Shown piece after piece: positions 12,953 to 30,469 of a stretch of DNA of 33,057 nucleotides. Made by a program: the position numbers and the translations under genes. The stretch is from Trinickia mobilis. GTDB lineage: Bacteria; Pseudomonadota; Gammaproteobacteria; Burkholderiales; Burkholderiaceae. Below the pieces are notes generated by a model. The model had not been told where the DNA came from. It was given only the letters and a program-made list of their open reading frames with translations, and did not search any database. The stretch is from contig NZ_JAFLRF010000055.1 of the NCBI RefSeq assembly GCF_017315705.1, forward strand, positions 1-33,057, in the 5' to 3' direction. How positions within the stretch are numbered: position 1 is the first letter of the stretch; each line of letters begins with the position of its first letter.

Positions 12953-13006
12953 TGGTGCCCAGGGCCGGACTCGAACCGGCACGCCTTGCGGCGGGGGATT
13001 TTGAGT
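12953..13006 (-). pseudogene. 3' half of the tRNA-Leu(CAA) gene interrupted by the island
   Basis: On the minus strand this segment starts in the anticodon loop (ACTCAAAAT), continues with the 3' anticodon stem TCCCC, a variable arm (GCCGCAAGGC), the T arm GCCGG-TTCGAGT-CCGGC, the acceptor 3' strand CCTGGGC, A73 and encoded CCA. The bases that should form the 5' anticodon stem have been replaced by island sequence (CCAAA instead of GGGGA), so the half cannot fold with what precedes it. Its true partner is at 30430-30469, on the far side of the island. Confidence 0.9.
12998..13006. other. Left attachment core (attL)
   Basis: ATTTTGAGT, identical to the copy at 30430-30438. In tRNA sense it is ACTCAAAAT, the seven-base anticodon loop CUCAAAA plus its closing pair. 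Host tRNA lies to the left, island to the right. Confidence 0.9.
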
Positions 13007-13163
13007 TTGGTGCGTCTATATAAGAGATTATGAAAACAGTTTAAATTCATACACTTATAAATTTCCCACAATAAGATTGGTGCGTCTGTATAAGTACTTG
13101 TGTGGGAAAATTTAAAGATTTGGGGGGAAGTGTGGGAAAATTGGGGGGAACCACTTTCCCACA
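13007..13163. repeat. Left-end integrase arm-type and host-like repeats
   Basis: TTGGTGCGTCTATATAAG (13007-13024) recurs with one change at 13078-13095. GTGCGTCTA matches the D-arm of the tRNA, so attP may carry partial tRNA mimicry. TGTGGGAAA elements occur at 13101 and 13131 and inverted (TTTCCCACA) at 13062 and 13155. The block TTGGGGGGAA occurs twice (13121, 13141). Spacing and orientation fit arm sites for a tyrosine integrase or a directionality factor. Confidence 0.65.
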
Positions 13164-13181
13164 AATACGCGCAGAGGCAAA

Positions 13182-14879
13182 ATGGCCGACGATGCAATCC
13201 CAAAAAAACCGCGCGCAGAATCGATAAAAGTCGACCTGTCGAGCCACACTGTCGTGGCCGGGCTCATCGAGACGAAGAAGAAGGGTGTCAATCCCGCTTG
13301 GGGCAAAACTTGGGGGGACTCGAACACCAAGGGATTCGGCCTGCGCATCTCGCCGCTGGGTCTGCCGAAGTGGGAATGGAAGTTCCGTGGCTACGGTGGT
13401 AAGCATGTCGAGGGCTCAGTGCCCTTCTTCATTGCTCCCAGGGTCAAGGGCGACGAAACAGAGTTTCCGGTGCCGCACGGGCACTACGACTACCTGATGG
13501 CCGTCGAGCATTACCGCCGCGTCCGTGTGAAGGCACTGATGAGTCCCGTGGAACGCGAGAAGGTTGCGCGACAAGGGATGACGCTTGCCGAGGCCTTTCC
13601 TAAATACCTCGAGAACAAGGTCTTGCAGTCGAGTCAGCGGAATCTGTCCGACGAGACCAAGAGCGCGTATTCCGACCAGTGGCGGTGGTTGGGTCCGCTT
13701 GCCGGAGACTGGGTGCTGAAAGACACCGATTCTTTCCAGTGGCAGCGCATGTTCGAAGAGGAGGCGTTGAAGGCTTGCATTAAGCGCGAGATTTTGCGAA
13801 GCGTGCACGAGGGATATGGTGCAGGCGCAGATATTAATGGTGCGCAAAAACTCGCTGTAATCAAAAGGCTTGAGCGTGGTCTTTCTGGAAAATGGCAAGA
13901 AGAGCCGTGGTGGACAGTCCTGGCTAAAGAGGAACGCGCAGGTGTTGAAAAGTGCCTGAATTCGGTGAAAGAGTCTGACATTAAGAAATTGGAATCGTCG
14001 CCTGTGATACAGGCAGCGAATCTCGTTTCAGGCATTTACACCTATTTTGCTGACGACAATAATCGGTTGTTCAATCCGATTAAACCGATGAAAAAGCGCT
14101 GGCGGGTTAAGAAACCTACGCGGCGTGTTCGAGCAATTCCGACGCTCAATATGCCCGATTTTTGGAAGGCGTTGCAAAACCGCAAGAAAGTCAAGGTCAG
14201 CAAGGACTGCATTACGGTTATCCTTCTGACGGGGTTCCGCAACAGCGCTGCTCGTAGGATGCGGTGGGAGCAGGTCGACTTTGAGCTTGGTATCTACACA
14301 GTCAAAGAAGGCGATGTAGGCTGGAAGGGCTACACAGGCGGCATGGCGCTGAGTGACTACGTGCTTGACCTTCTGCGTGAGCGACGCGAAGCTGACCCGC
14401 ATGGCGAGTGGGTCTTCCCCGCCCACGTCACGCGTTCATCAGGCCACCTGAGCCGTTTGGGTGACTCTGTGAAGAAGTGCTGCGAGGAAATGGGGCTGAA
14501 GACCAGTGAATACTACATCCCGCACGACCTGCGCCGGGGATTCAGTACCGCAGTGAAAACCGTGTCAGGCAGCGATTTTAAGATGGTTGCCACGTTGCTT
14601 GGCCACAAATGGGCAACTGACGATAACGATGAGACAATGCGCGAGGAGTCGGTTACGTTCGGCTATATCAGCGAGGAATTGATGGCGCGCAGGCACGTGG
14701 CTAACAGGACGGCTGAATTCCTGTTGCAGGTGAGTAGGGCCAAGGCAATGGAGAAGTGGGTCGCTGAGTTGCTTAAAAGCAGAGGCATTGACCCGAGCCA
14801 CTATCAACCTGACAAAGATTTTCCTGAGGCGGATGACGATGATGCAGACGATTCAATATCAGCCGTAGCCGCTGATTGA
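13182..14879 (+). CDS. Tyrosine recombinase / island integrase
   Basis: 565 residues, long for the family (usual about 330-450). The N-terminal ~130 residues would bind arm sites, and a core-binding helical region spans about 130-290. The catalytic domain has Arg353 (LTGFRNSA), Lys in GDVGWKGYTGG as the beta-hairpin lysine candidate (about 382), His448-xx-Arg451 (HDLRRGF), His475 (LLGHKW) and nucleophile Tyr495 (VTFGYISEEL), so it should be active. An acidic tail (about 545-560) ends the protein. It adjoins attL, reads into the island, and a strong terminator follows. It would cut the anticodon-loop core shared with the tRNA. Its codon use is visibly more AT-rich than the flanks, in keeping with transfer. 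Confidence 0.93.
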   Translation: MADDAIPKKPRAESIKVDLSSHTVVAGLIETKKKGVNPAWGKTWGDSNTKGFGLRISPLGLPKWEWKFRGYGGKHVEGSVPFFIAPRVKGDETEFPVPHGHYDYLMAVEHYRRVRVKALMSPVEREKVARQGMTLAEAFPKYLENKVLQSSQRNLSDETKSAYSDQWRWLGPLAGDWVLKDTDSFQWQRMFEEEALKACIKREILRSVHEGYGAGADINGAQKLAVIKRLERGLSGKWQEEPWWTVLAKEERAGVEKCLNSVKESDIKKLESSPVIQAANLVSGIYTYFADDNNRLFNPIKPMKKRWRVKKPTRRVRAIPTLNMPDFWKALQNRKKVKVSKDCITVILLTGFRNSAARRMRWEQVDFELGIYTVKEGDVGWKGYTGGMALSDYVLDLLRERREADPHGEWVFPAHVTRSSGHLSRLGDSVKKCCEEMGLKTSEYYIPHDLRRGFSTAVKTVSGSDFKMVATLLGHKWATDDNDETMREESVTFGYISEELMARRHVANRTAEFLLQVSRAKAMEKWVAELLKSRGIDPSHYQPDKDFPEADDDDADDSISAVAAD

Positions 14880-14886
14880 AATGAAG

Positions 14887-14910
14887 AGCCCCTCAAACGA
14901 GGGGCTTTTT
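14887..14910 (+). terminator. Rho-independent terminator after the integrase
   Basis: AGCCCCTC (14887-14894), loop AAAC, GAGGGGCT (14899-14906) and a run of five T. Perfect 8-bp stem. Confidence 0.92.
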
Positions 14911-15181
14911 GATTAGAACGGGCTCGCTCGATATTCCGGCTCCCGCCTTTGGCCTATGCTGACGATGTGTTTTTCGTCTGGCCTGTTACATATAGGCATG
15001 AACCGGTTGAGCTCCTCAGCTGTTTATTGCGACGACGCGTGGAATATCGTTACTTCTGGGGCGTCCGTCCTCCCGCGCTCGCAGCCTGTTAACATCAAGG
15101 CGCTGGACGCGCCGCATGCTGTTCGGACCAGCCGTGTGTCCCCGAGGCTCGACGCGAAAATAAAGAAAAAGGGCAACGCCA

Positions 15182-15835
15182 GTGAAACTATTAGAGGGTT
15201 GTAGCGCGCTTGTCGCCGCTTTATTGGCGATATCAGCGCAGGCCGCTGTTTCAACCAACGTCGCCGATGCCAATTTCATCGCGGAACAGTATTGCGACGA
15301 TACGTGGAGAGCGATATCGACGGTCGCGGTTGCTCCAGGTGACCCGGACATTGACCGGGCGAAGCGTATCGTTAGCCAATTGAGCGATACCTTGGGCGAC
15401 GGGGACTGGCAAGTCGTTGTTTTTTCATATCCGAGGCTCGGATGGCCGGTGATGGCGCTGATGGGCAGCCGGGTTGTGGTTTCCAAGGAATTCGTCGACG
15501 ACAGCAATGACGATGAGCTGGGATTCGTCTTTGCCCATGAGATGGGACACGTCATCTTGGGGCACCTGCAGCAACGCTACGCGGCACTGATAGCTGACGC
15601 AGGCGGCCGTGTTACTCGCTGGACACAACTGGCTCGATACGCCAGGCAGGAATGGCGTCTTTATCGAGAAGAGGAGTACCAGGCGGACAAGTTTGGTTTT
15701 GCGCTTGCGGGCAAGGCTGGGTTCGATGCTAAAGATGGCGCATACACCGCCCTCTCGCATCTGATGCCAGACCCGCAGCACCCGACACCAGATGAGCGCC
15801 TGTCGGCACTGGGGCTTAGCGCCGCCCGCAACTAG
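15182..15835 (+). CDS. M48-family zinc metallopeptidase, exported
   Basis: 217 residues from GTG 15182; the ribosome site is weak (AAAGGGC). Signal peptide about 1-22 (LVAALLAISAQAA). The zinc motif HEMGH is at 119-123 with the third ligand Glu165 in EYQADKFG, both hallmarks of M48 peptidases such as BepA/LoiP-type periplasmic proteases. There is no TPR tail. The family degrades or assists misfolded envelope proteins; here the target is unknown. The peptidase is cargo of the island, directly after the integrase terminator, and stands alone on its transcript. The 270 bases before it hold a copy-like stretch (15025-15044) resembling codons 36-42 of this gene. Confidence 0.85.
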   Translation: MKLLEGCSALVAALLAISAQAAVSTNVADANFIAEQYCDDTWRAISTVAVAPGDPDIDRAKRIVSQLSDTLGDGDWQVVVFSYPRLGWPVMALMGSRVVVSKEFVDDSNDDELGFVFAHEMGHVILGHLQQRYAALIADAGGRVTRWTQLARYARQEWRLYREEEYQADKFGFALAGKAGFDAKDGAYTALSHLMPDPQHPTPDERLSALGLSAARN

Positions 15836-15853
15836 TCCTATTGCGCGCCTCAG

Positions 15854-16429
15854 TCAGTGGTCCTGGGTGGGCCGTGTGAACGGGTCGAGGTCCAGAATGT
15901 ACGAAAGACGTGCGGTCTGTCCGTAGTCCCGCCGTGCAATCGCTTTGACGTACCGGAACCACGCTGCGGGCATGTCGGCGGTCATCGACTCGCAAAACCA
16001 CTGGTGATTTTCCAGATATTTTTTGACATAAAGGGCGCATGCGGACAGTCGAAGCCAGAGGGCATACATGGCATCGGCATCGCTAAGGGTATCGATGTCG
16101 AACCCGAATAGTCTGAAATAGGCACGGGCCTTTTCGTGTTCATCTGGGTACCAGAGATATTCGCGTCCGTCATCATCGACCACGATGTTCGTGGAGAATT
16201 CGAATTCCAGAAGCTGAAGCACTTCCTGCTTCTTGCGGCTGTCAATGGGCGCGCCGGGTTTGAAGGCCACCGGGCGCGTGAGCGCGTTCCATCGGTCGTC
16301 GGGCGACAGGCTTTTTGTTGGTGGGTGAGGCTTTGTACTGGGTTCGGACGGAGGCCGCACGGCGTAAGCAGCCTTGCGAGGAATTGCCTTTGCGCGCCTA
16401 AACGCAGCCAGTTCGATTACGGTGCCCAT
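15854..16429 (-). CDS. Hypothetical protein, 191 residues
   Basis: Minus strand, ATG 16429 with AAGGGCAAAG before it. The N-terminal ~45 residues are basic and Pro/Ser-rich, probably disordered (MGTVIELAAFRRAKAIPRK, then PPSEPSTKPHPPTKS). The rest is a mixed helical domain (about 55-185) with many aromatic residues (YLWYPDEHEKARAYFRLFGF, LENHQWFCESM). There is no signal peptide or membrane segment. I do not recognise a family. It is convergent with the M48 gene, 18 bases apart, so the two may share 3' signals. Confidence 0.6.
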   Translation of the reverse strand: MGTVIELAAFRRAKAIPRKAAYAVRPPSEPSTKPHPPTKSLSPDDRWNALTRPVAFKPGAPIDSRKKQEVLQLLEFEFSTNIVVDDDGREYLWYPDEHEKARAYFRLFGFDIDTLSDADAMYALWLRLSACALYVKKYLENHQWFCESMTADMPAAWFRYVKAIARRDYGQTARLSYILDLDPFTRPTQDH

Positions 16430-16606
16430 CTTTGCCCTTGTTGTGTTTTTGGAGCGGGGGAGGGATTTTACGCACGTTCTGGAAGTCAGTCAATGAATCA
16501 GCGGGCGTTCATCGAACCGTTCGCGGGTGGACGGGAGCTTCGCATTCGCGCCATAAATAAACTTGGTGGCTATATTTTTCATCCAAATCTGAGATGAAAG
16601 CGCGAC

Positions 16607-16960
16607 ATGAAAATGAAAGAGACACCATCCCTTTGTAACCAATTCGCCGACGCTCCCGGCGCGCAGGCCGCTCGGCGGTTATTTGAGGCATGTCATCGCG
16701 TGGGTGAAGACGCGAGGCCCATCGCTGAATTCCTCGTCAGTCTATGCACTAGCGAATGGACACGCATTGACGCGGGCTCGCTTTGCCGCCGAATCATTGA
16801 CGACGCACTTTTCACGGACATCATCGCTGTCATGACGTGGCTTCGCGAAGGTCGGCACGAAGGTTTTGACTTGCCCGATATTTTCGGTTCGTCCAACGCC
16901 GGCTACGCAGTGATTTTGGACCTGATGGACCGATTTGAAATCCATCGAATGGCGTTCTGA
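16607..16960 (+). CDS. Hypothetical protein, paralogue of the product at 20757-21155
   Basis: 117 residues. The core shares a pattern with the protein encoded at 20757: GAQAA-RLF-xC, an IA(E/A)FLV(S/G)L segment, then LCR, a short D/N-A-(L/V)F-(T/E)D(I/V) stretch and a final DxFMxRFE-type end (LDLMDRFEIH). This matches a style of small uncharacterised proteobacterial proteins, possibly the DUF7673 group, but I cannot confirm that. All helical, cytoplasmic by appearance. Ribosome site is weak. It heads a run of small plus-strand genes (16607-17998) with island-specific upstream motifs. Confidence 0.65.
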   Translation: MKMKETPSLCNQFADAPGAQAARRLFEACHRVGEDARPIAEFLVSLCTSEWTRIDAGSLCRRIIDDALFTDIIAVMTWLREGRHEGFDLPDIFGSSNAGYAVILDLMDRFEIHRMAF

Positions 16961-17032
16961 GGAGGCGCAATCCCGGACCGACCGGAAATGATGTCGGCGT
17001 GCCCTCGTCAATCAGTCTGTCAACGGCTTTCT

Positions 17033-17040
17033 CTATACGT
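17033..17040 (+). promoter_or_regulatory. CTATACGT element, candidate island promoter/operator
   Basis: CTATACGT 44 bases before the start of the small membrane protein. Close copies precede the genes at 17253, 21241, 22436 (minus) and 20409 (minus). TATACG could serve as a -10 box, but no consensus -35 is visible, so an activator site is an alternative. A perfect 8-bp hairpin (17043-17065) follows. Confidence 0.4.
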
Positions 17041-17083
17041 CAAGCGGCGGGTTACTTCCGCCGCTACGTTTAACGGAGGACTC

Positions 17084-17191
17084 ATGGTCACTTGGTCGTA
17101 CAACCAGCTGGTGTTGGTTATCCTGCTTGCGTTTGTAGCGGGCTATGCGATGGGGCGCCTGCGCGCGCTCGTGGCGGCGTCGAGGCGGTGA
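17084..17191 (+). CDS. Small single-pass membrane protein, 35 residues
   Basis: ATG 17084 preceded by AACGGAGGA, a strong ribosome site. The product MVTWSYNQLV... has one membrane helix (about 8-24, LVLVILLAFVAGYAMG) and a basic end (RLRALVAASRR), giving an N-out/C-in topology. Such miniproteins in mobile elements can be toxins, holin-like or regulators of membrane enzymes; nothing here decides. The next gene follows after 61 bases. Confidence 0.6.
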   Translation: MVTWSYNQLVLVILLAFVAGYAMGRLRALVAASRR

Positions 17192-17199
17192 CTATACGT
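17192..17199 (+). promoter_or_regulatory. CTATACGT element, second copy
   Basis: CTATACGT directly after the stop of the small membrane protein and 53 bases before ATG 17253. The context GCGGTGACTATACG is shared with the copy at 21185. Confidence 0.4.
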
Positions 17200-17252
17200 A
17201 AGGAGGGGCCGGTCTTTCCGGTCGTCGACAACCCGAAATAGGACAACTAATC

Positions 17253-17438
17253 ATGAACACGTATTTGGTAACCACGACGCACGAGGACCCGGAATATCGC
17301 GTAGTCGGCGTTCACGCCGAGTATCTCGATGACGCTATCGCGCGCCTTGTGGACATTCCCGAACTCAGAGGCCACAAGGTCCGCCTGGCGCTTGCCGTGC
17401 CACGTGACACAGTGAGCATGCTCCCCCACGTGGTCTGA
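17253..17438 (+). CDS. Hypothetical small protein, 61 residues
   Basis: ATG 17253 with AGGA 10 bases upstream. The product begins MNTYLVTTTHEDPEYRVVGVHAEYLDDAIARL and reads as a compact beta-alpha-beta fold like small ferredoxin-fold or nuclease-inhibitor proteins, though no family is recognised. An antisense frame of similar length exists but has a poorer start. A hairpin (GCGGACGT/ACGTCCGC, 17474-17498) and a terminator follow. Confidence 0.55.
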   Translation: MNTYLVTTTHEDPEYRVVGVHAEYLDDAIARLVDIPELRGHKVRLALAVPRDTVSMLPHVV

Positions 17439-17519
17439 CGCGGGTCCAGCAAACCCGAGGACAAAACCAATTTGCGGACGTTAGAGACACACGTCCGCGC
17501 GGCCTAACGCCGCCTTATT

Positions 17520-17546
17520 GCCTCCCTCCTTGGGAGGCATCTTTTT
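17520..17546 (+). terminator. Rho-independent terminator
   Basis: GCCTCCC (17520-17526), loop TCCTT, GGGAGGC (17532-17538), then ATCTTTTT. It closes the 16607-17438 small-gene run. Confidence 0.88.
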
Positions 17547-17623
17547 GGCTACGTGGCTTGCTGCAGCGTGCGACCACGCATATAGTCGACGAGACCAATT
17601 AAAAGAAAAAAGCGGAGGTCTTC

Positions 17624-17998
17624 GTGCACGTACTGCGGCGAGTAGCAATTGTGGTCGTCCTTGTCGGCGTGTTGCCGCTGCTCTGTACGATATACATAGC
17701 GTGGTACAACGACAGTCCGACGACCTTTCGCGGTTTGGTCCGGTCGGTGTTTTTTTGGCAGGGTTTCCTGTGGGCCGGGAGCCTGCTAATGGCCTATATG
17801 TTGGCGTTGACCTTCCTCGTAGCGACCGGGCGCATTGTGGTCGTGGCGGGGGAGGCGGATGAGATGCCCGATGTGGGGGAGCATGCAGTCGGGTCCGAGA
17901 TTGGGGTACATCCGGTGACCGGGAACATGACGGTCAACGGTTTTGATGTCATGACGGGCTACTCCACCGCAGACTATCCGTCTACGACGTTCGAATAG
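17624..17998 (+). CDS. Two-pass membrane protein, 124 residues
   Basis: GTG 17624 with GCGGAGGTC eight or so bases before it. Two membrane helices are clear: about 6-27 (VAIVVVLVGVLPLLCTIYIAWY) and about 43-67 (FFWQGFLWAGSLLMAYMLALTFLVA). The last 55 residues are soluble and contain a VGSEIGVHPVTGNMTVNGFDVMTG segment, a beta-rich repeat-like stretch seen in short phage/plasmid accessory proteins. No family recognised. Topology would place both termini on the same side. Confidence 0.6.
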   Translation: MHVLRRVAIVVVLVGVLPLLCTIYIAWYNDSPTTFRGLVRSVFFWQGFLWAGSLLMAYMLALTFLVATGRIVVVAGEADEMPDVGEHAVGSEIGVHPVTGNMTVNGFDVMTGYSTADYPSTTFE

Positions 17999-18050
17999 GC
18001 CGGAAGTCCGATGGCCGTCGGCCTTCAAGTGGTCCGTCAAATCGGGTTTT

Positions 18051-18578
18051 TCAAGAGGCGGATAGCAGCGATGGGCTGATGACTAACGACAGGCCCAATC
18101 CGGACGTCGCCGACTCGCCATCATGTCGCCAGAATCGTACGTCACCTTGCATTCCAACAATGATGACCTCCTCGGAGCCGCCCTCCAGGTATGCCCGGAT
18201 TTTTCGGGACGTCTCGAGGTCGTGATTGTATGGCGCTAGCACCTCAACGCAGACGTGGGGTGCAAACGGCAGCGGGTCGTCGCTTTCTCGCGCATCGCTC
18301 CATCGTTCCATTGGCATCCAGGCGACATCGGGAACCAGTATGCCAGCAGAGGTGACCACCGGCACTGACTGAACAGCTAATAATCCCAACTGAAGCGACA
18401 GCTGGGACGCGATGCTCCCCGCCACCATTTGGTGCCTGGTGGTTGGACGTGGAGTGACGACGATGTCACCCCGCTCGCTGAGTTCATACCAGTCAGTTTC
18501 GATTTCCCAATCGCCATTCTGCAGCGCCCTCCAGCGAGCAAGCAATTCGGCCGTAGCTAAGCGGTCGCCCACATGCAT
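18051..18578 (-). CDS. Uma2/DUF820-family putative restriction endonuclease-fold protein
   Basis: 175 residues on the minus strand. ATG 18578 is preferred to one at 18590 because GGAGG lies 5-6 bases upstream. The fold signature of Uma2 proteins is present: VPDVAWM (Asp84) and, after 27 residues, VCVEVLAP (Glu112), then K126 in TSRKIRAYLEGGSEEVIIV. These form a PD-(D/E)xK-type active site. The family is abundant in cyanobacteria and is often linked to mobile elements; natural substrates are unknown. It stands alone between a two-pass membrane protein and the primase-helicase, preceded by a 9-bp inverted repeat. Confidence 0.75.
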   Translation of the reverse strand: MHVGDRLATAELLARWRALQNGDWEIETDWYELSERGDIVVTPRPTTRHQMVAGSIASQLSLQLGLLAVQSVPVVTSAGILVPDVAWMPMERWSDARESDDPLPFAPHVCVEVLAPYNHDLETSRKIRAYLEGGSEEVIIVGMQGDVRFWRHDGESATSGLGLSLVISPSLLSAS

Positions 18579-18623
18579 CGCGTCCTCCATCGGCGTAGAA
18601 GATTTTGTCCGCAGTGTAGCTCG

Positions 18624-18652
18624 AACCGGTGCCCAGGTCTGGAGCACCGGTT
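18624..18652. promoter_or_regulatory. Inverted repeat upstream of the Uma2-family gene
   Basis: AACCGGTGC (18624-18632) and GCACCGGTT (18644-18652), a perfect 9-bp inverted repeat with an 11-base spacer, 46 bases before the minus-strand start at 18578. Candidate operator; could also be a hairpin. Confidence 0.4.
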
Positions 18653-18798
18653 ATCCGTACAGCTTGTCGCAGGGCTCTAGAATCCGTGCCGCTTCGGTTC
18701 TCACGAACCCGCTTTACGTGTATCCCGGCACTGAGCTTACGCGCGCAATTGTCAATGGAAACAAACAATCTGAAAGTCACCGCAAAATCGTAGCTTGA

Positions 18799-18885
18799 GC
18801 CAAGTGAGTCAGGTAAAGGCAAGGAAAAAAAGGTTGTCAATTGCAATTCGCCGGGAATGTTCGTCGGTTACCTGGCTCACTTGGC
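18799..18885. repeat. Long inverted repeat behind the primase-helicase gene
   Basis: The arm GCCAAGTGAGTCAGGTAA (18799-18816) pairs with TTACCTGGCTCACTTGGC (18868-18885): 18 bp with a single G:T-type mismatch. The 51-base loop contains a polypurine block (18817-18834) and the palindrome AATTGCAATT. No T-run follows, so it is not a plain terminator. Its place beside the 3' end of a D5 helicase suggests a cis replication site, by analogy with P4 crr (inference). Confidence 0.6.
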
Positions 18886-18934
18886 ACCGGGCTGAAGAGC
18901 GCGCTTCAGGCCGGTCCAACTACGTCCAGCGTTT

Positions 18935-22857: not shown

Positions 22858-22967
22858 GGCGCATCCAATGGACGCGTTCCGTTTGTCGACGGATTAAATC
22901 ATCGTTATACCCGCAGGACGCGAGAGAGACCGTCAGAGGGTGGCGCGCAGCCTAACGGATGCGTGCA

Positions 22968-23819: not shown

Positions 23820-23827
23820 GATTGCTC

Positions 23828-24175
23828 CTAGGAGCGGTTGCGTTCCGCCAGTTGTTTTATCAAGGTTTCCGCTATCTGCCTGTCTGCGTCACTCAATGAT
23901 TTCACGTCGCGATACAACTGCTCGTCAAGAGCGGTACTTCCATGCATATCTTCGCTTCTTCCCATGAGGTAGTCGGTTGTCACGGCCAAGGCTTTGGCCA
24001 GTGCACGCAAGTTGTCGAACGAAGGCTTGCGGGTCCCATCCTCCTTTTCGAAATGCGAAATCGAAGTTGCGGGCAGATTGCAGAGCCGACCAAGTTCGGC
24101 TTGGGTCAACTTGCGGACTTCCTCTCGGACATAACGCAGACGCTGTGCGAACAGCTTGCGGATATCTTCTTCCAT
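23828..24175 (-). CDS. XRE-family repressor
   Basis: 115 residues from ATG 24175; the frame extends to 24253 but protein-like sequence starts at MEEDIRK. The ribosome site is weak. The helix-turn-helix is LTQAELGRLCNLPATSISHFEKEDGTRKPSFDNLRALAKAL (about 24-64), followed by a YLMGRSED hinge and a C-terminal oligomerisation region. It is the expected partner and target of the ImmA protease downstream (eight-base gap). It probably binds the inverted repeat at 24234-24257 to repress both directions. Confidence 0.9.
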   Translation of the reverse strand: MEEDIRKLFAQRLRYVREEVRKLTQAELGRLCNLPATSISHFEKEDGTRKPSFDNLRALAKALAVTTDYLMGRSEDMHGSTALDEQLYRDVKSLSDADRQIAETLIKQLAERNRS

Positions 24176-24233
24176 TTGTCGATAATGCCAAGTCTGAGTT
24201 GACGAGTTTGTGATATTTCGATAAAGTAAGGCC

Positions 24234-24257
24234 GAACTTGCTAAAGTCGACAAGTTC
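24234..24257. promoter_or_regulatory. Inverted repeat operator upstream of the XRE gene
   Basis: GAACTTG (24234-24240) and CAAGTTC (24251-24257), 7-bp arms with a 10-base spacer, in the AT-rich gap between the XRE gene (minus) and the plus-strand gene at 24352. It is the natural site for XRE autoregulation. Confidence 0.6.
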
Positions 24258-24351
24258 AGTTTAGCACAGTGCCCCGTGGGCGCCCACTGGTGAGGCGTGT
24301 GCGCGAAAAGCTCTGCGCACCTTCCTCGGCAGTCTGCTTGGGAGGGATGAC

Positions 24352-25296
24352 ATGCAAGACGAAGTGCAAGACGAATTGCGTCGAATCGGACAGTTGCTCG
24401 ATGCGGCGCGCTATCCGGTTGTAAGGAATGGTGGGCTCGTTGCGCCCGGGGGGCCCATCATTTCTCCCTCGACCCTGGGCAAGGAGTCCAATCATGCCCG
24501 AACACGACAAAAAGCGTCCGGAGCATCACCAGCATCACCAGCAGCACGAACACGAGCACCCTCATGGAACGGGACACTCCCACGGCCATCACGGGCACCC
24601 GTCGGACCCGGGACGTCCCATCCCGCCGCATCGCTCGTCCGCGCAGAACTCCATCGCAAGTTCGCCAGTGAACTGGAAGCGGTAGCGCAGGCTTACCCCG
24701 GCACGCGAACTTGGCTTGATGACGACGGCATGTGGGTTGTTGCCGAGAGTTCGCTGCTGCCGGGGCTTTCGCATAAAGCGTTGTTCATTATTGGTATCCG
24801 CTTTGCGAGTGGCGTCGTTCGAGGCTGGGGTTTTTGGGGCACCGATGCCATCGGATACGAATGGATTGGGCCTCGGCACACCAACTTCCCGGACGGCTCG
24901 ATATGTGCGTTTGAGCCGACTGACGGTACCTGGACCGTATGGAGTCCGCTGGTCCTGCTGCTGGACCTCTACTCGTTGTGGGCCGTCAGGCATCTGCACC
25001 TCAGTACATTCGGACGCTGGCCGGGCCGTCAATCAGTTCGCTATCCATATGAACGGATGCTCGAATTGACTGACGACGAATACTGCGGCTGCGAGGAGTC
25101 ATCCCGGCTGTATGGACAGTGCTGCAAAGAGTCAGACCAAGCGCGAACTCAAATGGAAGAAGCAATCCGCTTCACGTTGGATATGCACGGCGGCATTCGT
25201 CGACCGCCGGCATCAATCTGTGATTTCGTCCGTGACAGACATCGAGTGCCGAGGCCGGAAGAGGTGTTCGCTTGGATTACACCGACGATGCTGTAA
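24352..25296 (+). CDS. Ubiquitin-conjugating E2-like protein with C-terminal SEC-C-type zinc motif
   Basis: The frame is open from ATG 24352 (GGGAGGG before it) for 314 residues. From about residue 97 (RAELHRKFASELE) it is clearly protein-like: GIRFASGVVRGWGFWG, then RHTNFPDGSICAF with Cys185, which mirrors the E2 active-site pattern HPNxxxxGSICL, then TWTVWSPLVLLLDLYSLW like the segment after the E2 cysteine. Cys245-Gly-Cys247 and Cys257-Cys258 (CGCEESSRLYGQCC) look like a SEC-C zinc motif. Residues 50-92 are the out-of-frame reading of a His-rich ORF and have poor wobble GC, so the real N-terminus is doubtful: no good start exists in this frame between 24494 and 24727. Either frameshifting from the His-rich ORF or a mutation is needed. 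E2 function is a hypothesis. Confidence 0.5.
   Translation: MQDEVQDELRRIGQLLDAARYPVVRNGGLVAPGGPIISPSTLGKESNHARTRQKASGASPASPAARTRAPSWNGTLPRPSRAPVGPGTSHPAASLVRAELHRKFASELEAVAQAYPGTRTWLDDDGMWVVAESSLLPGLSHKALFIIGIRFASGVVRGWGFWGTDAIGYEWIGPRHTNFPDGSICAFEPTDGTWTVWSPLVLLLDLYSLWAVRHLHLSTFGRWPGRQSVRYPYERMLELTDDEYCGCEESSRLYGQCCKESDQARTQMEEAIRFTLDMHGGIRRPPASICDFVRDRHRVPRPEEVFAWITPTML
24494..24685 (+). CDS. Histidine-rich ORF overlapping the E2-like frame
   Basis: ATG 24494 is preceded by AAGGAG with ideal spacing. It gives 63 residues: MPEHDKKRPEHHQHHQQH at the start, 15 His in the first 46 residues, then a proline-rich GRPIPPHRSS. Wobble positions are GC-rich in this frame and A-rich in the alternative, so this frame is the coding one up to about 24640. 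It then ends at 24685 inside the E2-like region, which is in the other frame. His-rich segments bind metals or serve as flexible linkers. Most likely it is the natural N-terminus of the E2-like protein, joined by a -1 shift, or a coupled small protein. Confidence 0.55.
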   Translation: MPEHDKKRPEHHQHHQQHEHEHPHGTGHSHGHHGHPSDPGRPIPPHRSSAQNSIASSPVNWKR

Positions 25297-25342
25297 CCCG
25301 CATTAAACGCAAGTTATTCCCGCCACCTCCATTGCCAGCGGT

Positions 25343-25597
25343 TCAAATCCTTAGGGCGTTCTGAGTCCCAAAGTTTCCTGCTTCTACCGTGAAGCGGAGG
25401 ACCCCGACCTGGGCGAGGAACGAGCAGAGCGTGTCCAGGTGCCGGAATGTGCGTGGGCCGCCTCGTTGAGCGAGGAGCGCTTCCTCTTCAATCCCGTTTC
25501 GCACAATGACGACAAAGCCGCCGGGCACTTGACGGGCGATGACCTCTTCGAGGGACCCGAGGCGGGCTAGCTGGCGAAGTACGGGAGTATCAATCAT
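25343..25597 (-). CDS. Hypothetical small protein divergent from the methyltransferase
   Basis: 84 residues from ATG 25597, or 89 from ATG 25612; neither has a good ribosome site. The sequence MIDTPVLRQLARLGSLEEVIARQVPGGFVVIVRNG, then AQRGGPRTFRHLDTLCSFLAQVGVLRFTVEAG, is regular alpha/beta and resembles small plasmid- or island-borne proteins I cannot name. No helix-turn-helix is evident. It is transcribed away from the methyltransferase across a 12-bp inverted repeat, which suggests that it, or the methyltransferase, is regulated from that site. Confidence 0.55.
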   Translation of the reverse strand: MIDTPVLRQLARLGSLEEVIARQVPGGFVVIVRNGIEEEALLAQRGGPRTFRHLDTLCSFLAQVGVLRFTVEAGNFGTQNALRI

Positions 25598-25605
25598 GGA
25601 ATTCT

Positions 25606-25635
25606 GACCCATCAAAAGTAATATTTTGATGGGTC
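25606..25635. promoter_or_regulatory. 12-bp perfect palindrome between the methyltransferase and its divergent gene
   Basis: GACCCATCAAAA (25606-25617), spacer GTAATA, TTTTGATGGGTC (25624-25635). It covers the alternative start at 25612 and lies 23 bases before the methyltransferase start at 25658. A controller or autoregulatory operator for the restriction-modification locus is likely. Confidence 0.65.
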
Positions 25636-25657
25636 GATTTGAAGAATTTGCAGGCAG

Positions 25658-26905
25658 ATGATAAGCTACGACGCAAACCGTCGCAACCGTCGAATCATGG
25701 CCCAAAAAAACGTTGTAGTACCGCTGCGCAAGAGCGGAAACGCCCGTAGCGTCGAGCTGTTCTCGGGGTGCGGAGGGCTTGCGCTTGGCCTTTCCGCGGC
25801 CGGGTTCAGTCATGACCTGTTGGTCGAGTGGGACGCGCACGCCTGCGCGACCGTAGCGCACAATAAAGCGAACGGGGTGCGCGCCGTCAAACACTGGCCG
25901 CTGCGTCACAGCGACGTGCGGGAAATTGACTGGTCGACTCACGCGGACCTCGACCTGGTGGCGGGTGGGCCGCCGTGCCAGCCATTCTCACTGGGTGGAA
26001 AAGGCGCCGGGGAGCAGGACAAGCGAGACATGTGGCCGGAAGCGATTCGCGCCGTTCGCGAAACGATGCCGAAGGCTTTCGTCTTCGAAAACGTGCGCGG
26101 GTTGTTGCGTCCGGCGTTTCGAGACTATGTCCGCTGGATTGTGCGATATCTGGAAAACCCGGGCTTGGTCAGGCGCGTTGGGGAATCGCACTACGACCAC
26201 CTCGCCAGGTTAGAGAAGCAGGCTAAGAAAGCCACCTACGCCGTCTCCGTGAATCCAGTGAACGCCGCTGACTACGGCGCGCCCCAGAAGCGCAACCGTG
26301 TTGTCATCGTTGGAGTTCGCAAGGATATCGCTGAGCTTGAGGACTTTCCCGCGCCGACGCACAGCCAAAGCAGACTTGTCTGGGACAAGTGGATTAGTGG
26401 CGACTACTGGAAACGCCACGACCTGCCGCAGCCCGACCAGTCACTTGTGCCCGCGTCGGAAGCGCGAATCGCCGAAGCTCTGCGGCTGCATGGTCGTCGT
26501 CCTCCTGAGCGCGCGTGGCTGACTTGTCGAGACGCCTTTGTTGGGCTCGGTGAGCCAAGCATTCGCCATGACATCGCCAATCACGTTTTTCAGCCCGGAG
26601 CCCGTTCGTACCCGGGGCATACTGGCAGTCCAATCGATGATGCGGCTAAAGCCCTTAAGGCGGGGGTTCACGGCGTGCCCGGCGGTGAAAACATGCTCGC
26701 TCGTGAAGACGGCAGCGTCCGGTATTTCAGCGTGAGAGAAGCGGCGAGGCTGCAGGGGCTACCCGACGAATATGAATTTCCAGGCAGTTGGGGGGAGTCA
26801 ATGCGGCAGATTGGCAACGCCGTGCCGGTCCAACTGGCGAGATTCGTTGGCGATTGGCTCGTTTCCTTGACGGCAGCGGCAGACGCTTCGACGAGGGTGG
26901 CCTAG
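25658..26905 (+). CDS. C5 cytosine DNA methyltransferase (Dcm family)
   Basis: 415 residues from ATG 25658; ATG 25697 is an alternative and neither has a strong ribosome site. All main motifs are present: motif I ELFSGCGGLALGL (34-46), motif IV GGPPCQPFS with catalytic Cys107, motif VI ENVRG (about 144-148), motif VIII QKRNRVVIVG, motif IX VREAARLQGLPD and motif X RQIGNAVP. The target-recognition region lies between VIII and IX. It would methylate cytosine C5 within the island's and host's target site. Together with the GIY-YIG nuclease and Vsr directly downstream it forms a complete restriction-modification-repair set; a Vsr partner implies the modified base mutates by deamination, as for Dcm-type sites. 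Confidence 0.93.
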   Translation: MISYDANRRNRRIMAQKNVVVPLRKSGNARSVELFSGCGGLALGLSAAGFSHDLLVEWDAHACATVAHNKANGVRAVKHWPLRHSDVREIDWSTHADLDLVAGGPPCQPFSLGGKGAGEQDKRDMWPEAIRAVRETMPKAFVFENVRGLLRPAFRDYVRWIVRYLENPGLVRRVGESHYDHLARLEKQAKKATYAVSVNPVNAADYGAPQKRNRVVIVGVRKDIAELEDFPAPTHSQSRLVWDKWISGDYWKRHDLPQPDQSLVPASEARIAEALRLHGRRPPERAWLTCRDAFVGLGEPSIRHDIANHVFQPGARSYPGHTGSPIDDAAKALKAGVHGVPGGENMLAREDGSVRYFSVREAARLQGLPDEYEFPGSWGESMRQIGNAVPVQLARFVGDWLVSLTAAADASTRVA

Positions 26906-26950
26906 TCGGAAAGGTTAACGAGATAATCCTTTGTGCTCGGACTCCTGCCC

Positions 26951-28216
26951 ATGAAGGTCATGAATCAATCTCGACAACTATTCGACCAAGAAAATCCAGA
27001 AGCCCAAGAGACGTCTGAAGCACTTCGGGCAGGCGAAGCACCCGAGCAAGACGACGCTGTCACTGAAGATGCGGAAACGGAAGACGTGGCCGCAAAGTTC
27101 GAGTTGGCCGACGCTCCCCGAGACTTTGCCTGGAACCCTCCCGAAAGCGACGTATCCTTCGCGATAAAAGGTAGTCTCAACCGTCCGGGTTTAGGCTCAT
27201 TTGAACTAAACCTGAATCGCAGTCTCGCCCAGCAACTTGGACCCTTCTTCGATTCGCTTGAAACAGCGCCTCTCACTCGCGATAACCTGGGAGGCATTGA
27301 TGATGGGGTGGAGGGCGTTTATGCGCTCTACATCAATGACGAGCTCTCCTATGTCGGGAAATCGGACGCCCGGAGGGGGCTGAAGGCTCGGCTGAGAAGG
27401 CATCGGCGGAAACTGTCGAACCGGGTTGGTATTTCGGTTGATTCAGTTCATTTCAAGGCGGCGCAAATCTTCTCTTTCGCCGCGCTTGACGTTGAGGCGC
27501 TACTGTTACGCCTTGCGCGCCAGCGAACGCTTGAAAGAGCCGAGGCATTACATGCCAATGAACTGTCTAAGTGGGAGTCGCAACTCCGAGAAATCGAGGA
27601 GACAAAGCCGTTGAATTCGCGGCGCGGTGAGAGTCCGCACGTCGAGTGGACCGCGCGAAAGAAGCAGCACAGGGAAATCAAACCCGTCAAGCCGACCTTC
27701 GAAAAAACCAAACCGCCGTTCCTGAACAACTCGGGCTTCGGGTCCAACGACACGGGGAAGGAGCGCGACACGCAAAAGGCGTCGGACTTCGACCTGAGAT
27801 ACTCCCTGGATATGGACTCCCACGTCGACGCCTTCGCGATAGCGGCCGAACGAATCGACGAAGGCACGGAGACGAAAAGTCAGCCGGCGAATTCCGACCT
27901 GTATTCCGCACTTCAATGGTTCGCGACGAACGTGTGCTTTACCTTTCGTGTGGAGGGCGCGTCACGCGCCGCGCTCTCCGCGGTGAACGTGGAATGCCAG
28001 TCCCTTTTCGCCGCCGGTCCTATGCGGGAGGTACTATCGCGCATTAGTGCGGCGCTTCCGGATGGTTGGCGTATCAGTCTTATGCGTGGAAAGGTGTTGG
28101 CCTACAACGACGCAAGTAAGACACTGAGGGATGTCCAGATGCACTTCATCGGGGGCGCGGAATCCGTGCCCAGTTCAATGGAAGCATCCCATGGTGGGCG
28201 ACCCGCTAACGCGTGA
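26951..28216 (+). CDS. GIY-YIG nuclease, probable restriction endonuclease
   Basis: 421 residues from ATG 26951 (ATG 26960 and GTG 26933 are alternatives). An acidic N-terminal ~50 residues (QETSEALRAGEAPEQDDAVTEDAETEDVAAK, broken for length) precedes a core. The GIY-YIG motif is GVYALYINDELSYVGKS (GVY 122-124, YVG 134-136), followed by the basic helix RRGLKARLRRHRRKL with the catalytic Arg, and Glu about 182 in ALDVEALLLRL. This arrangement resembles Eco29kI/Cfr42I-type restriction enzymes, but the protein is about twice their ~210 residues: the C-terminal ~200 residues, with a basic hinge (KPVKPTFEKTKPP), form an extra domain I do not recognise. Position between the methyltransferase and Vsr supports restriction. 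Site unknown. Confidence 0.75.
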   Translation: MKVMNQSRQLFDQENPEAQETSEALRAGEAPEQDDAVTEDAETEDVAAKFELADAPRDFAWNPPESDVSFAIKGSLNRPGLGSFELNLNRSLAQQLGPFFDSLETAPLTRDNLGGIDDGVEGVYALYINDELSYVGKSDARRGLKARLRRHRRKLSNRVGISVDSVHFKAAQIFSFAALDVEALLLRLARQRTLERAEALHANELSKWESQLREIEETKPLNSRRGESPHVEWTARKKQHREIKPVKPTFEKTKPPFLNNSGFGSNDTGKERDTQKASDFDLRYSLDMDSHVDAFAIAAERIDEGTETKSQPANSDLYSALQWFATNVCFTFRVEGASRAALSAVNVECQSLFAAGPMREVLSRISAALPDGWRISLMRGKVLAYNDASKTLRDVQMHFIGGAESVPSSMEASHGGRPANA

Positions 28217-28610
28217 GCAACGCAGCGAGCGAATGCGGCGAGTGCGTGGAAAAGACACGCAGCCAGAGCTGCTTGTTCGCCGATTACTTCACGGTTTGGG
28301 CTATCGATTCCGCATTCACAGGTCAGAGCTTCCAGGTAAGCCAGATATCGCCTTCATCCGTCGCAGGCGGCTAATCTTTGTCCACGGATGTTTCTGGCAT
28401 CAGCATGGATGCGGCCACTACAAGATGCCGCAGTCGTCGACTGACTTCTGGCACAAGAAGCTCGCCAGTAATGTTGAGCGTGACCGCCGGCATATGCAAC
28501 AGCTACACGATGACGGCTGGCAAGTATTGGTGATTTGGGAGTGCGAGCTGCGCGACCGGAGCGCACTTGCCAATCGATTGACGGCGTTCCTAGGCCCGAC
28601 GCGAATCTAA
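28191..28610 (+). CDS. vsr: Vsr very-short-patch mismatch-repair endonuclease
   Basis: 139 residues from ATG 28191, overlapping the nuclease stop by 26 bases; the longer frame is not needed. Begins LTREQRSERMRRVRGKDTQPELLVRRLLHGLGYRFRIH as in other Vsr proteins. The active-site Asp lies in KPDIAFI, and FVHGCFWHQHGC holds the catalytic His and zinc ligands, with C and H also in GCGHYK. Vsr nicks 5' to T in T:G mismatches made by deamination of 5-methylcytosine, starting repair. It protects the methyltransferase's site from C-to-T loss. Length is normal (Vsr about 135-160). Confidence 0.93.
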   Translation: MVGDPLTREQRSERMRRVRGKDTQPELLVRRLLHGLGYRFRIHRSELPGKPDIAFIRRRRLIFVHGCFWHQHGCGHYKMPQSSTDFWHKKLASNVERDRRHMQQLHDDGWQVLVIWECELRDRSALANRLTAFLGPTRI

Positions 28611-28641
28611 TTGCGCCGGCGCTCGAGCGAATGCCCCTGCC

Positions 28642-28896
28642 TTAGTTGCCATTGCCATGTCTTGATGTAAGGTCGGGGGCGCCTTTGAGAAGACCTCTAA
28701 CGCTGATGTCCTCATCTAACTCCGGCCAATGCAACCCTTCCCCCGACGCGCTGATACGGAATCGCTGTCGTTGTTCCGGCGTCGCAGCAAGCAGGGTGGG
28801 GAACCAGACCAGCGGCACTGTCAGCGCGCGGCCGTCTGTCAGATAAACGGTAAACCGGTCCGATTCGAACAAAAGGTCTTGAGCGCGGAAGGCCAT
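28642..28896 (-). CDS. DUF2442 family protein
   Basis: 84 residues, ATG 28896. The pattern FTVYLTDGRALTVPLVWFPTLLAATPEQRQRFRISASGEGLHWPELDEDISVRGLLKG (broken for length here) is typical of DUF2442, with the conserved 'LSDGR.l.vPl.wfP.L..A' and 'ihWp.lDeDIsv.gLL' elements. These small proteins often accompany toxin-antitoxin genes (DUF4160) and may act as antitoxin-like partners; none is obvious here, so it may be a solitary copy. It faces the R-M cluster convergently. Confidence 0.7.
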   Translation of the reverse strand: MAFRAQDLLFESDRFTVYLTDGRALTVPLVWFPTLLAATPEQRQRFRISASGEGLHWPELDEDISVRGLLKGAPDLTSRHGNGN

Positions 28897-29011
28897 GGGT
28901 CAACCTATGACGTGTAGCGGCAGGCTTGAAGGTTATCTCATGTCTTTGTCGAGTATGTTGGGGGTTAGCAACCGTTAGGACACTTTGAGACAGAAAAGCA
29001 CAGAGAACTGC

Positions 29012-29215
29012 TTACTGCCTTCGTTTGGTCGGCTTGGTCGTGCTCGAAGCGACCGGCGTAGTGCTCGAAGAGGCGCCGCGCTTCTGAGTAGCGACGGTTT
29101 CCTGGCCTGCGTTCTGCTTCAGCATGTCGGGTCGCAGTCGTTTGATGCCCTCCATGCTGTCGCCGACCATTGCCCAGCTCGACCCTTTTCCCTGCTTCTT
29201 GCTATCGTTGGCCAT
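29012..29215 (-). CDS. Small polar protein with GIKRLRP motif (third gene of the GIxxLRP cassette)
   Basis: 67 residues, ATG 29215, one base after the stop of the preceding gene (TGA-C-ATG), with GAAGGTGAA as ribosome site. MANDSKKQGKGSSWAMVGDS leads to MEGIKRLRPDMLKQN, then a Ser/Thr/Pro tail (ASSSTTPVASSTTKPTKRRQ). The motif GI(K/A)xLRP is shared with both upstream genes. Predicted to be disordered and hydrophilic with no signal or membrane segment. Function unknown; the shared motif suggests a common binding partner. Confidence 0.6.
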   Translation of the reverse strand: MANDSKKQGKGSSWAMVGDSMEGIKRLRPDMLKQNAGQETVATQKRGASSSTTPVASSTTKPTKRRQ

Positions 29216-29216
29216 G

Positions 29217-29435
29217 TCATTTCACCTTCGGACTCGAGGTCGTTGTCGGTGCCGTGGGAGTTGTGTTGGCCGTGTGCGCAGTCGGGGCAGTAGATTGTGT
29301 CCCGGTTGCCGCAGGGCGCAGTTGGCTCACACCCACAAACGACTTTTGGCCGGGCCTGAGCTTCGCAATGCCATCGAAACTCTCGAAGTTCGGGGTTAAG
29401 CCCGAAACGTCCGGCTTGTCGTTGTCGTTTGCCAT
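29217..29435 (-). CDS. Small polar protein with two LRP motifs (second gene of the GIxxLRP cassette)
   Basis: 72 residues, ATG 29435, one base after the upstream stop (TGA-A-ATG). MANDNDKPDVSGLTPNFES, then FDGIAKLRPGQKSFVGVSQLRP, then a Thr/Ala/Pro-rich tail. It matches the C-terminal region of the membrane protein upstream (SVQGIKNLRPDVLQKSF...GKLRP), including the KSF between the two LRP motifs, and shares MAND(S/N) with the gene downstream. The tail is low-complexity, like a linker. Translational coupling is strongly indicated by spacing and overlap. Confidence 0.6.
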   Translation of the reverse strand: MANDNDKPDVSGLTPNFESFDGIAKLRPGQKSFVGVSQLRPAATGTQSTAPTAHTANTTPTAPTTTSSPKVK

Positions 29436-29436
29436 T

Positions 29437-30114
29437 TCACTTCCCTTTGCCAGATGGATTGGAGGTTGGGTTAGTCGGAGCAGCGCCGGATGCTTGAGGC
29501 GTCGATGCAGCAGGCTTTGCCGTCGCAGGTGCGGAAGCGCCGGTACTCGCCTGCGGGCGAAGCTTGCCAGCGTCGATGAAAGATTTTTGCAGAACGTCGG
29601 GGCGCAAATTCTTTATGCCCTGCACGCTGTCGTTACGAACTATCGGCGCGCTGGGTTTCTTGTTGTCAGTCATGGCCTTCACCTTCGTATTGTAAGAGTC
29701 GGTCGCGGCAAGCACCCCGACGACTGCGGCGCAGATGATGCCGACGCCGAAAACAATCATCGAAGCTGTCTCGATGATTCTGAGCTGCCGGGTACTCAGT
29801 TCATCGTTGCCGCCAACGACAGCAATGATATGTGATTTATTGAGTCGGAAAATCCACAGCAACAGGACTAGGGTGACTGTGAAGGCCACGATTCCGACGA
29901 GGTAAGCGACCAGCTCGATTCGGGACGTTAGACCAACGGTCGTGAGGAGGGTGACCAGCAGGCCGAGACCGCCGGCTGCTAGAGTGAAGATGCCCTTGTC
30001 GTATTCAAGCGACGTGGTGTAGAACGCGTCCAGGGCGGCAGCATAGAAGGCAACCTCACGTTCGTTGTCGACCGGAGCTTCTTGCTGGTTTTCTTGTTGT
30101 TGCACGTCCGCCAT
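29437..30114 (-). CDS. Three-pass membrane protein with GIxxLRP tail (first gene of the cassette; SLATT-like)
   Basis: 225 residues from ATG 30114, with GAGAAG before it; a TTG 36 bases upstream is less likely. The soluble start (MADVQQQENQQEAPVDNEREVAFYAAALDAFYTT, broken for length) leads to membrane segments at about 48-70 (GIFTLAAGGLGLLVTLLTTVGL), 75-98 (LVAYLVGIVAFTVTLVLLLWIF) and 120-142 (ASMIVFGVGIICAAVVGVLAA). The helix pair after a charged N-terminus recalls SLATT-type membrane effectors of conflict systems, but I cannot confirm that. The tail contains SVQGIKNLRPDVLQKSFIDAGKLRP followed by an Ala/Thr/Pro-rich end, and an internal MTDNKKP resembles the starts of the two downstream genes. 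It is the first gene of a coupled operon. Confidence 0.65.
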   Translation of the reverse strand: MADVQQQENQQEAPVDNEREVAFYAAALDAFYTTSLEYDKGIFTLAAGGLGLLVTLLTTVGLTSRIELVAYLVGIVAFTVTLVLLLWIFRLNKSHIIAVVGGNDELSTRQLRIIETASMIVFGVGIICAAVVGVLAATDSYNTKVKAMTDNKKPSAPIVRNDSVQGIKNLRPDVLQKSFIDAGKLRPQASTGASAPATAKPAASTPQASGAAPTNPTSNPSGKGK

Positions 30115-30136
30115 CGGCTTCTCGCATGCTGAATGC

Positions 30137-30161
30137 AAAAAGCCGCCCAAAATGAGCGGCT
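30137..30161 (-). terminator. Terminator of the island tRNA-Leu
   Basis: On the minus strand AGCCGC (30156-30161) pairs with GCGGCT (30141-30146) and T's follow (A at 30137-30140). It lies 20 bases beyond the tRNA 3' end, between it and the membrane-protein gene. Confidence 0.7.
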
Positions 30162-30180
30162 CTGCGATACTTTAACTAGT

Positions 30181-30264
30181 TGGTACCCGGGGTCGGACTC
30201 GAACCGACACGTCTCGCGACAGAAGATTTTGAGTCTTCCGTGTCTACCATTTCACCACCCGGGC
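30181..30264 (-). tRNA. tRNA-Leu (anticodon CAA), complete, carried by the island
   Basis: 84 bases with encoded CCA. Minus-strand acceptor GCCCGGG pairs with CCCGGGT (one G:U), D arm GGTGAAATGGTAGACAC, anticodon stem GAAGA/TCTTC around loop CTCAAAA (anticodon CAA), a long variable arm (GTCGCGAGAC), T arm GTCGG-TTCGAGT-CCGAC, A73 and CCA. Leucine identity features (A73, long variable arm) are present. It lies inside the island, 166 bases from the right attachment core, and probably supplies the leucine UUG tRNA whose host gene is split. Confidence 0.95.
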
Positions 30265-30270
30265 ATTGAC

Positions 30271-30348
30271 CACCGGGGAAATTCCCCGAAAAGTGGTTCA
30301 GTGCGTCTAGCGAAAAATCTAAATTTTGTGGGGAAATTGGGGGGGACC
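30271..30348. repeat. Right-end arm-type repeats of the island
   Basis: CGGGGAAATTCCCCG is a 15-bp palindrome at 30274-30288; GTGCGTCTAG at 30301 resembles the left-end GTGCGTCTA; TGTGGGGAAATTGGGGGG at 30327 matches the left-end repeat at 13131 with one change within these 18 bases, and the match continues into ACC. Mirror-like sites at both ends fit integrase arm or Xis binding. Confidence 0.6.
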
Positions 30349-30429
30349 AAAATCCTGCCAACTTTCGTACCTGCCGCAAACCCTTGATAGACAAGGCTCA
30401 CAGCCTACCACAGTTTTTTGCCGCACGAA

Positions 30430-30438
30430 ATTTTGAGT
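30430..30438. other. Right attachment core (attR)
   Basis: ATTTTGAGT, the copy paired with 12998-13006. Island to the left (CACGAA), host tRNA 5' half to the right (CCCCTGCG). Confidence 0.9.
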
Positions 30439-30469
30439 CCCCTGCGTCTACCTGTTTCACCACCTGGGC
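30430..30469 (-). pseudogene. 5' half of the tRNA-Leu(CAA) gene interrupted by the island
   Basis: Minus strand: GCCCAGG acceptor 5' strand, D arm (TGGTGAAACAGGTAGACGCA), anticodon stem GGGGA and loop ACTCAAAAT at the core. It pairs perfectly with the half at 12953-13006: GCCCAGG/CCTGGGC and GGGGA/TCCCC. Here the loop runs straight into island sequence (TTCGTGCGG), which cannot fold as the missing half. Confidence 0.92.

Follow-up and report, generated by a model that had tools for sequence, protein, structure and literature searches.

The window analysed here, a 33,057-nucleotide stretch of Trinickia mobilis (contig NZ_JAFLRF010000055.1), carries a genomic island that breaks a host tRNA-Leu(CAA) gene and supplies a complete spare with the same anticodon, placed in line behind the promoter-like site of the gene it broke. 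We consider it highly probable (roughly 0.85) that the island works in this way, which would resemble the tRNA-dependent lysogeny of phages. The features concerned are, in window coordinates:

12953-13006, minus strand: 3' half of the disrupted host tRNA-Leu(CAA) gene, including the core at 12998-13006, at the junction adjoining the integrase
13007-30429: island, 17,423 bp excluding the core copies, between the two cores; the locus lacks it in the congeners G013 and G034
30135-30165, minus strand: hairpin and U run downstream of the spare (fold -18.9 kcal/mol, z -4.31), unflagged by the terminator scan
30181-30264, minus strand: spare tRNA-Leu(CAA), 84 nt (ARAGORN; RF00005, 56.1 bits)
30265-30429, minus strand: 165-bp spacer from the broken 5' half to the spare, with TGCGTCTA at 30302 (sequence comparison)
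30430-30469, minus strand: 5' half of the disrupted host tRNA-Leu(CAA) gene, including the core at 30430-30438; 40 of 40 bases equal the native gene
30538-30566, minus strand: promoter-like TTGCTC-17-CATAAT of the host tRNA gene, conserved in both congeners, missed by a stricter consensus scan

The core, ATTTTGAGT, is 9 bp long and falls in the anticodon loop; besides the copies at the two junctions, a third lies within the spare, at 30226. ARAGORN found no tRNA at either junction, and the single tRNA it reported in the whole window is the spare. The target is rebuilt at neither end, because the core is so short. When the flanks were fused at the core, ARAGORN typed an 85-nt tRNA-Leu(CAA), which matches the intact G013 gene at all of its 85 bases. 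In both congeners compared the locus is intact, without the island, and has the same Peripla_BP and LysR neighbours. The initial annotation, made from the letters of the window, had claimed that the island splits a tRNA-Leu(CAA) gene in its anticodon loop, that neither end restores the missing half and that loss of the island would restore the host gene. The first two claims were borne out by the cores, the fused flanks and the junctions, and the third, for a precise loss, is well supported by the island-free relatives that it had proposed to compare. Neither tRNA half shows any sign of decay, which suggests that the insertion is probably recent or the island still mobile.

The spare lies on the same strand as the broken gene, 165 bp past its 5' half; the initial annotation had given 166 bp for this copy, which is indeed intact and of the same anticodon. 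That the element both breaks a tRNA gene and brings such a spare is well supported by ARAGORN and the core positions, and two features had been left out of that description: the spare is in line with the host promoter, and the layout recurs in other islands. The spare is 80% identical to the native tRNA-Leu(CAA), and its closest match outside its own genome (87%, among 61 genomes searched) is in another family of the same order. The promoter-like site reads TTGCTC or TTGATC in the congeners, 54-68 bp from the tRNA, and CATAAT was also seen by eye upstream of the broken halves in three other genomes of the family (G276, G099 and G194). Since the spare lies behind this promoter, transcription could reach it via the broken 5' half.

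We therefore propose that integration at the 9-bp core splits the host gene, rebuilt at neither end, and brings in a complete, diverged tRNA-Leu(CAA) 165 bp inside the island, in host-gene orientation. Once integrated, the spare would be behind the host tRNA promoter and could be transcribed by read-through of the broken 5' half; only the layout for this is observed. An altered anticodon stem in the window, or an intron in the anticodon loop in many other islands, would keep the spare from becoming a target, and precise excision would restore the host gene.

We also asked, as the initial annotation had suggested, how many tRNA-Leu(CAA) genes the source genome holds. RF00005 gave 52 matches in this draft of 123 contigs, and the 10 longest (at least 81 bases, class II) were taken as candidate Leu genes. 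Nine of them were typed as Leu TAG, Leu CAG (two), Leu GAG, Ser (four) and Tyr, and the tenth is the spare. A DNA search of the genome with the spare returned only the spare itself and the broken 3' half, so that no intact copy apart from the spare came to light in the draft. RF00005 missed the genome's own tRNA-Leu(UAA) (G000 contig C47:254386-254762; L192, L193) because of its intron (~290 nt, in the anticodon loop) and could overlook an intron-bearing CAA gene too; no such gene was found elsewhere in the draft among the matches listed in the DNA search.

This count bears on another explanation, put forward by the initial annotation, that the spare is kept chiefly since it makes loss of the island costly. 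Being the one CAA gene found, the spare would lend itself to such addiction; however, precise excision restores the host gene, so that losing the whole island goes unpunished and only loss of the spare alone would be felt. Moreover, by wobble rules the tRNA-Leu(UAA) that is present may also read UUG. We thus regard addiction as doubtful, even with the precedent of a mycobacteriophage tRNA that is required for viable lysogens (Guerrero-Bustamante & Hatfull 2024, PMC10865867).

The same layout is found in other genomes of the family. The native tRNA was searched in 398 family genomes, with two candidates scored per genome, and 36 genomes with a weak best match among the matches listed were re-searched. 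In G276, a 5' half is followed after 187 bp by an intronless spare, and a 3' half lies at a distance of 131 kb. In G099, G194, G306 and G164, the 5' half lies 179-191 bp upstream of a tRNA-Leu(CAA) that bears an intron; G178, G350 and G052 carry an intron-bearing tRNA-Leu(CAA) for which a 5' half was not found.

A wider survey scanned genome_contigs, one genome per species, for the exon-intron start pattern. It matched 53 stretches, four of which were dropped for exons that are not tRNA-like (L150, L167, L169 and L183), leaving 49 loci, which, going by their record titles, we take to belong to Burkholderiales and Xanthomonadales save for a small number of assemblies with loose names and one that bears the label Mycobacterium. 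The two sets overlap (L155=G099, L180=G194, L160=G164 and L179=G306; without a 5' half, L154=G178, L146=G350 and L170=G052). A broken 5' half was recognised upstream on the same strand at 32 of the 49 loci, with alignment scores of 21-36, where 200 shuffles per locus gave no more than 15. When 600 bp were searched on all sides at a score of at least 20, this placement gave 32/49 and each of the three other placements gave 0/49. The distance from 5' half to spare is 188 bp in 16 of the 32 and 180-198 bp in 28; three have 252-254 bp and one, L152, has 49 bp and may be something else than this layout. This recurrence, together with the intronless G276, supports the reading of a spare set in line behind a broken gene. 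It also bears on the view that the spare is incidental cargo, for example countering host anticodon nucleases, and that the break in the host gene is a side effect which is tolerated. Phage tRNAs have been discussed in such a role (PMC10865867), but the recurring spares share the isotype of the gene they accompany and keep a near-constant place beside it, which makes this view improbable.

The native tRNA was then searched in 27 of the 49 genomes, of which 22 have a 5' half and 5 lack one; what follows holds among the matches listed. The 3' half was present in 21 of the 22 genomes having a 5' half, and none of the 22 had a full-length native match of at least 90%; five gave an untyped full-length match at 74-78%. 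As for the genomes without a 5' half, G444 gave a full-length match at 85%, and in G447 two intron-bearing copies occur along with a 3' half. The 5' half, spare and 3' half follow in this order on one contig in at least 11 of the 22 genomes (the 5' half of G438 coming from a separate alignment). The spare might also have been left behind by a previous insertion, or reflect an assembly join, and be no part of the element, as could be suspected from its divergence (80%) and from the draft state of the assembly; both halves and the spare share one contig, however, and the same order on single contigs in these genomes and in G276 leaves this explanation with very little credit.

Five of the 11 spans measure 66,897-66,920 bp, in Bordetella ansorpii, two Variovorax, Pseudorhodoferax and Diaphorobacter, and look as if one element had moved between genera. 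At the 17 of 22 3' ends that were examined, an integrase adjoins the 3' half in 16, with 65-96% identity to the G099 integrase, and is lacking in G442. The G099-type and window integrases do not match each other at 1e-5, and the integrase of G276 weakly matches both, which points to distant lineages of one superfamily.

Several observations weigh against the proposed mechanism. No 5' half is recognisable at 17 of the 49 intron-bearing loci, although four of the 17 (L147, L177, L181 and L190) keep the core ACTCAAAA at the usual distance together with a similar spacer, and three genomes with an intron locus and no 5' half (G445, G446 and G448) keep a full-length native match at 94%, among the matches listed. 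The stricter consensus scan of 30050-30650 returned neither promoter nor terminator; on terminators between promoter and spare it carries little weight, because even the hairpin went unflagged. The spare differs from the native gene along its whole length, its changed anticodon stem may simply stem from its donor, and selection for recoding of the spare was not demonstrable in the window.

The introns themselves may have a role in protecting the spare. ARAGORN typed seven CAA spares, and in these the intron is placed within the anticodon loop and interrupts the core ACTCAAAAT, and the pattern-matched loci begin at the same intron point. With the intron inside its core, the gene presents no intact target arm, and we infer that this disruption is the reason for the intron. 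None of nine intron sources reached the gathering score of RF00028; at an E-value threshold, applied to three, G099 gave 31.9 bits (E 5.6e-5) and G306 23.9 bits (E 0.014), both below the gathering score of 50, and G178 gave none. On these matches, the introns are candidate group I introns. The identity of the CAA introns to UAA-gene introns is 75-84% for G350 and G393, and 59-67% for G309 and the window's host, and this similarity makes a shared origin of CAA and UAA introns likely. Confinement of introns to spares was rejected for UAA, given the intron in the host's own tRNA-Leu(UAA), and is not absolute for CAA either, given the 17 loci without a recognisable 5' half. In G178, the intron-bearing gene lies ~50 bp behind a Peripla_BP gene, where the native gene is expected, and it is plausible that it replaced the native copy.

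Apart from these loci, Gordonia phage Daredevil (NC_048021.1) holds an intron-bearing tRNA-Lys(TTT) (L217:2340-2651), found in ARAGORN intron mode only. It lies 155 bp behind a single GGACTTTTAATCC (L217:2172-2184), on the same strand, between the integrase and gp53. The phage is described as targeting tRNA-Lys-TTT without rebuilding it, as having no tRNA of its own and as forming clear plaques (PMC10865867). RF00028 gave no match on this locus at E <= 0.1 and the tRNA has an unusual T loop; it may therefore be non-functional.

All together, a broader design can be outlined: widespread islands would break tRNA-Leu(CAA) and supply a spare made uncuttable by a self-splicing intron in the core or by a recoded stem, placed to inherit the host promoter, and this design would be shared by distant integrase families, in apparently two orders, and perhaps by a tRNA-Lys actinophage. 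We judge the chances for and against this generalisation to be about even.

Two further observations concern tRNA-Leu genes of the family. That all 36 genomes with a weak match carry split genes was rejected: 24 of the 30 loci returned, which all belong to genus g20, hold an intact tRNA-Leu(CAA) without an intron, and no 5' half was found upstream in the three checked. These 24 genes share ~83% identity with the type of the other family members, and the G276 spare is closely similar to them; L133, L134 and L136 do not adjoin the window's neighbour genes, and other g20 genomes carry the common type among the matches listed. The g20 gene is possibly an old gene replacement. Separately, G350 has an intron-bearing tRNA-Leu(UAA) (C33:18812-19122; L127:2813-3123) with a UAA-type 5' half 159 bp upstream, and the layout may exist for tRNA-Leu(UAA) as well.

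The remaining features of the island are:

13004-13024, plus strand: direct repeat, a candidate integrase-binding site with TGCGTCTA; second copy at 13074-13094, 90% identical
13182-14879, plus strand: tyrosine integrase, 565 amino acids (PF00589, E 7.2e-13; phrog_1 integrase)
15182-15835, plus strand: M48-type peptidase (PF01435, E 1e-12)
18935-20251, minus strand: C-terminal part of a P4-family primase (TIGR01613, 158.9 bits, cut-off 108.7; PF19263)
20215-20409, minus strand: small helix-turn-helix protein, in our reading AlpA-like (helix-turn-helix models, below cut-off)
22968-24253, minus strand: M78 peptidase (22968-23819; PADLOC capP model) and Cro/C1-type regulator (23828-24253)
25658-28610, plus strand: C5 DNA methyltransferase (25658-26905), open reading frame of 427 amino acids (26933-28216) and Vsr endonuclease (28131-28610), from profile scans

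No family was found in profile scans for the 427-residue frame (26933-28216), and further frames of the island are likewise without family. Two DUF7673-like proteins are encoded at 16607-16960 and 20712-21155, one slightly below cut-off. The PHROGs and Pfam scans covered a subset of the island's frames: no phage structural family was found in the 10 scanned against PHROGs, nor in those scanned against Pfam, and a temperate phage is thus not recognisable among the scanned frames. The pairing of primase and integrase that marks P4-like satellites is present (TIGR01613 above its cut-off, PF00589). The motif TGCGTCTA occurs at 13011, 30302 and 30443 (in the broken tRNA) and once elsewhere (2875, minus strand), against 0.25 per strand expected in the island by composition; we read the copies as candidate integrase sites.

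Relatives of the window integrase came solely from the search of the 398 family genomes, which gave five matches besides its own at E <= 1e-20, with 33-38% identity, all five within ~4 kb of a tRNA-Leu(CAA) sequence; the integrase frame is fragmented in G254 and G281. The layout is canonical in G231 and G254, where a single contig carries a full tRNA together with a displaced 3' half, and in G281 the same two elements are split over two contigs. In G326 the full tRNA adjoins the integrase and a 5' fragment lies 17.7 kb off, an arrangement in which the island seems to supply the 5' half. In G178 the 3' half adjoins the integrase, and the intron-bearing tRNA is on another contig. Both rebuilding and sparing are thus found in one integrase family, as has been reported for phages (PMC10865867). 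Back-translated integrase patterns matched eight stretches in genome_contigs, none confirmed, and gave no confirmed relative in viral_contigs either; tblastn with the integrase found no relatives in phages or plasmids. The intron pattern had no match in IMG/VR. A 601-base spare region, compared with plasmids and phages, gave only partial matches, none covering 80%; those in plasmids fall in 33 records, including Bradyrhizobium (9) and Cupriavidus (2), L220 and L221 being among them.

If the broader design outlined above holds, the islands would act as vehicles for bacterial tRNA introns and offer a route for foreign replacement of host tRNA genes. The window illustrates how a foreign tRNA gene could end up as the sole copy of a lineage. 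A role would also be suggested for bacterial tRNA introns, that of keeping the spare beyond the reach of the integrase. In practice, the layout is searchable (a broken 5' half, mostly 165-198 bp, then a spare on the same strand), and intron-bearing spares are missed by annotation that lacks an intron mode, as ARAGORN without it missed the Gordonia phage locus.

The closest known system is tRNA-dependent lysogeny, defined for actinobacteriophages, including a tRNA-Leu-CAA case with an 8-bp core, and its prevalence beyond these phages was said to need study (PMC10865867); our results would extend this 2024 principle to islands of Burkholderiales and Xanthomonadales. As in the phages, where a tyrosine integrase acts at a core of ~8-17 bp in a host tRNA gene that is not rebuilt, the window has a tyrosine integrase beside an attachment site in a tRNA gene, a short core without rebuilding and a tRNA-Leu(CAA) on the element (30181-30264). 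Unlike the window island, the published cases are actinobacterial temperate phages with a proven need for the tRNA, and the Fionnbharth tRNA, which overlaps a further gene, is served by a promoter of its own that has been tested (PMC10865867). The window island is not phage-like in its scanned frames and its spare is in line with the host promoter, and the spares of other islands bear introns; it would thus work like tRNA-dependent lysogeny, and we class it as similar, not as a member. Canonical tRNA-gene islands share with it the tyrosine integrase beside one junction and the crossover in the anticodon loop, but they carry the missing part of the tRNA, so that the target is rebuilt (Islander, PMC4383910); the window island does not, whereas G231 and G254, relatives of its integrase, look canonical. 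In Sinorhizobium prophages, integration inactivates a tRNA gene, and a tRNA of the same isoacceptor from another lineage, carried on the element, takes its place; these prophages are alphaproteobacterial and phage-related, and the accessible text makes no mention of spare introns or of a host promoter (PMC11476347). The initial annotation's contrast with most tRNA-targeting elements thus stands as to the target not being rebuilt, and is tempered by precedent (PMC10865867, PMC11476347); in another set, the available part of the report states that no replacement tRNAs were found (PMC12429752). The literature searched, which covered few subscription papers, held no description of intron-bearing replacement tRNAs or of host-promoter capture. 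The principle is therefore already known, the window being a variant of it in an island, and the intron-bearing islands are the more novel part.

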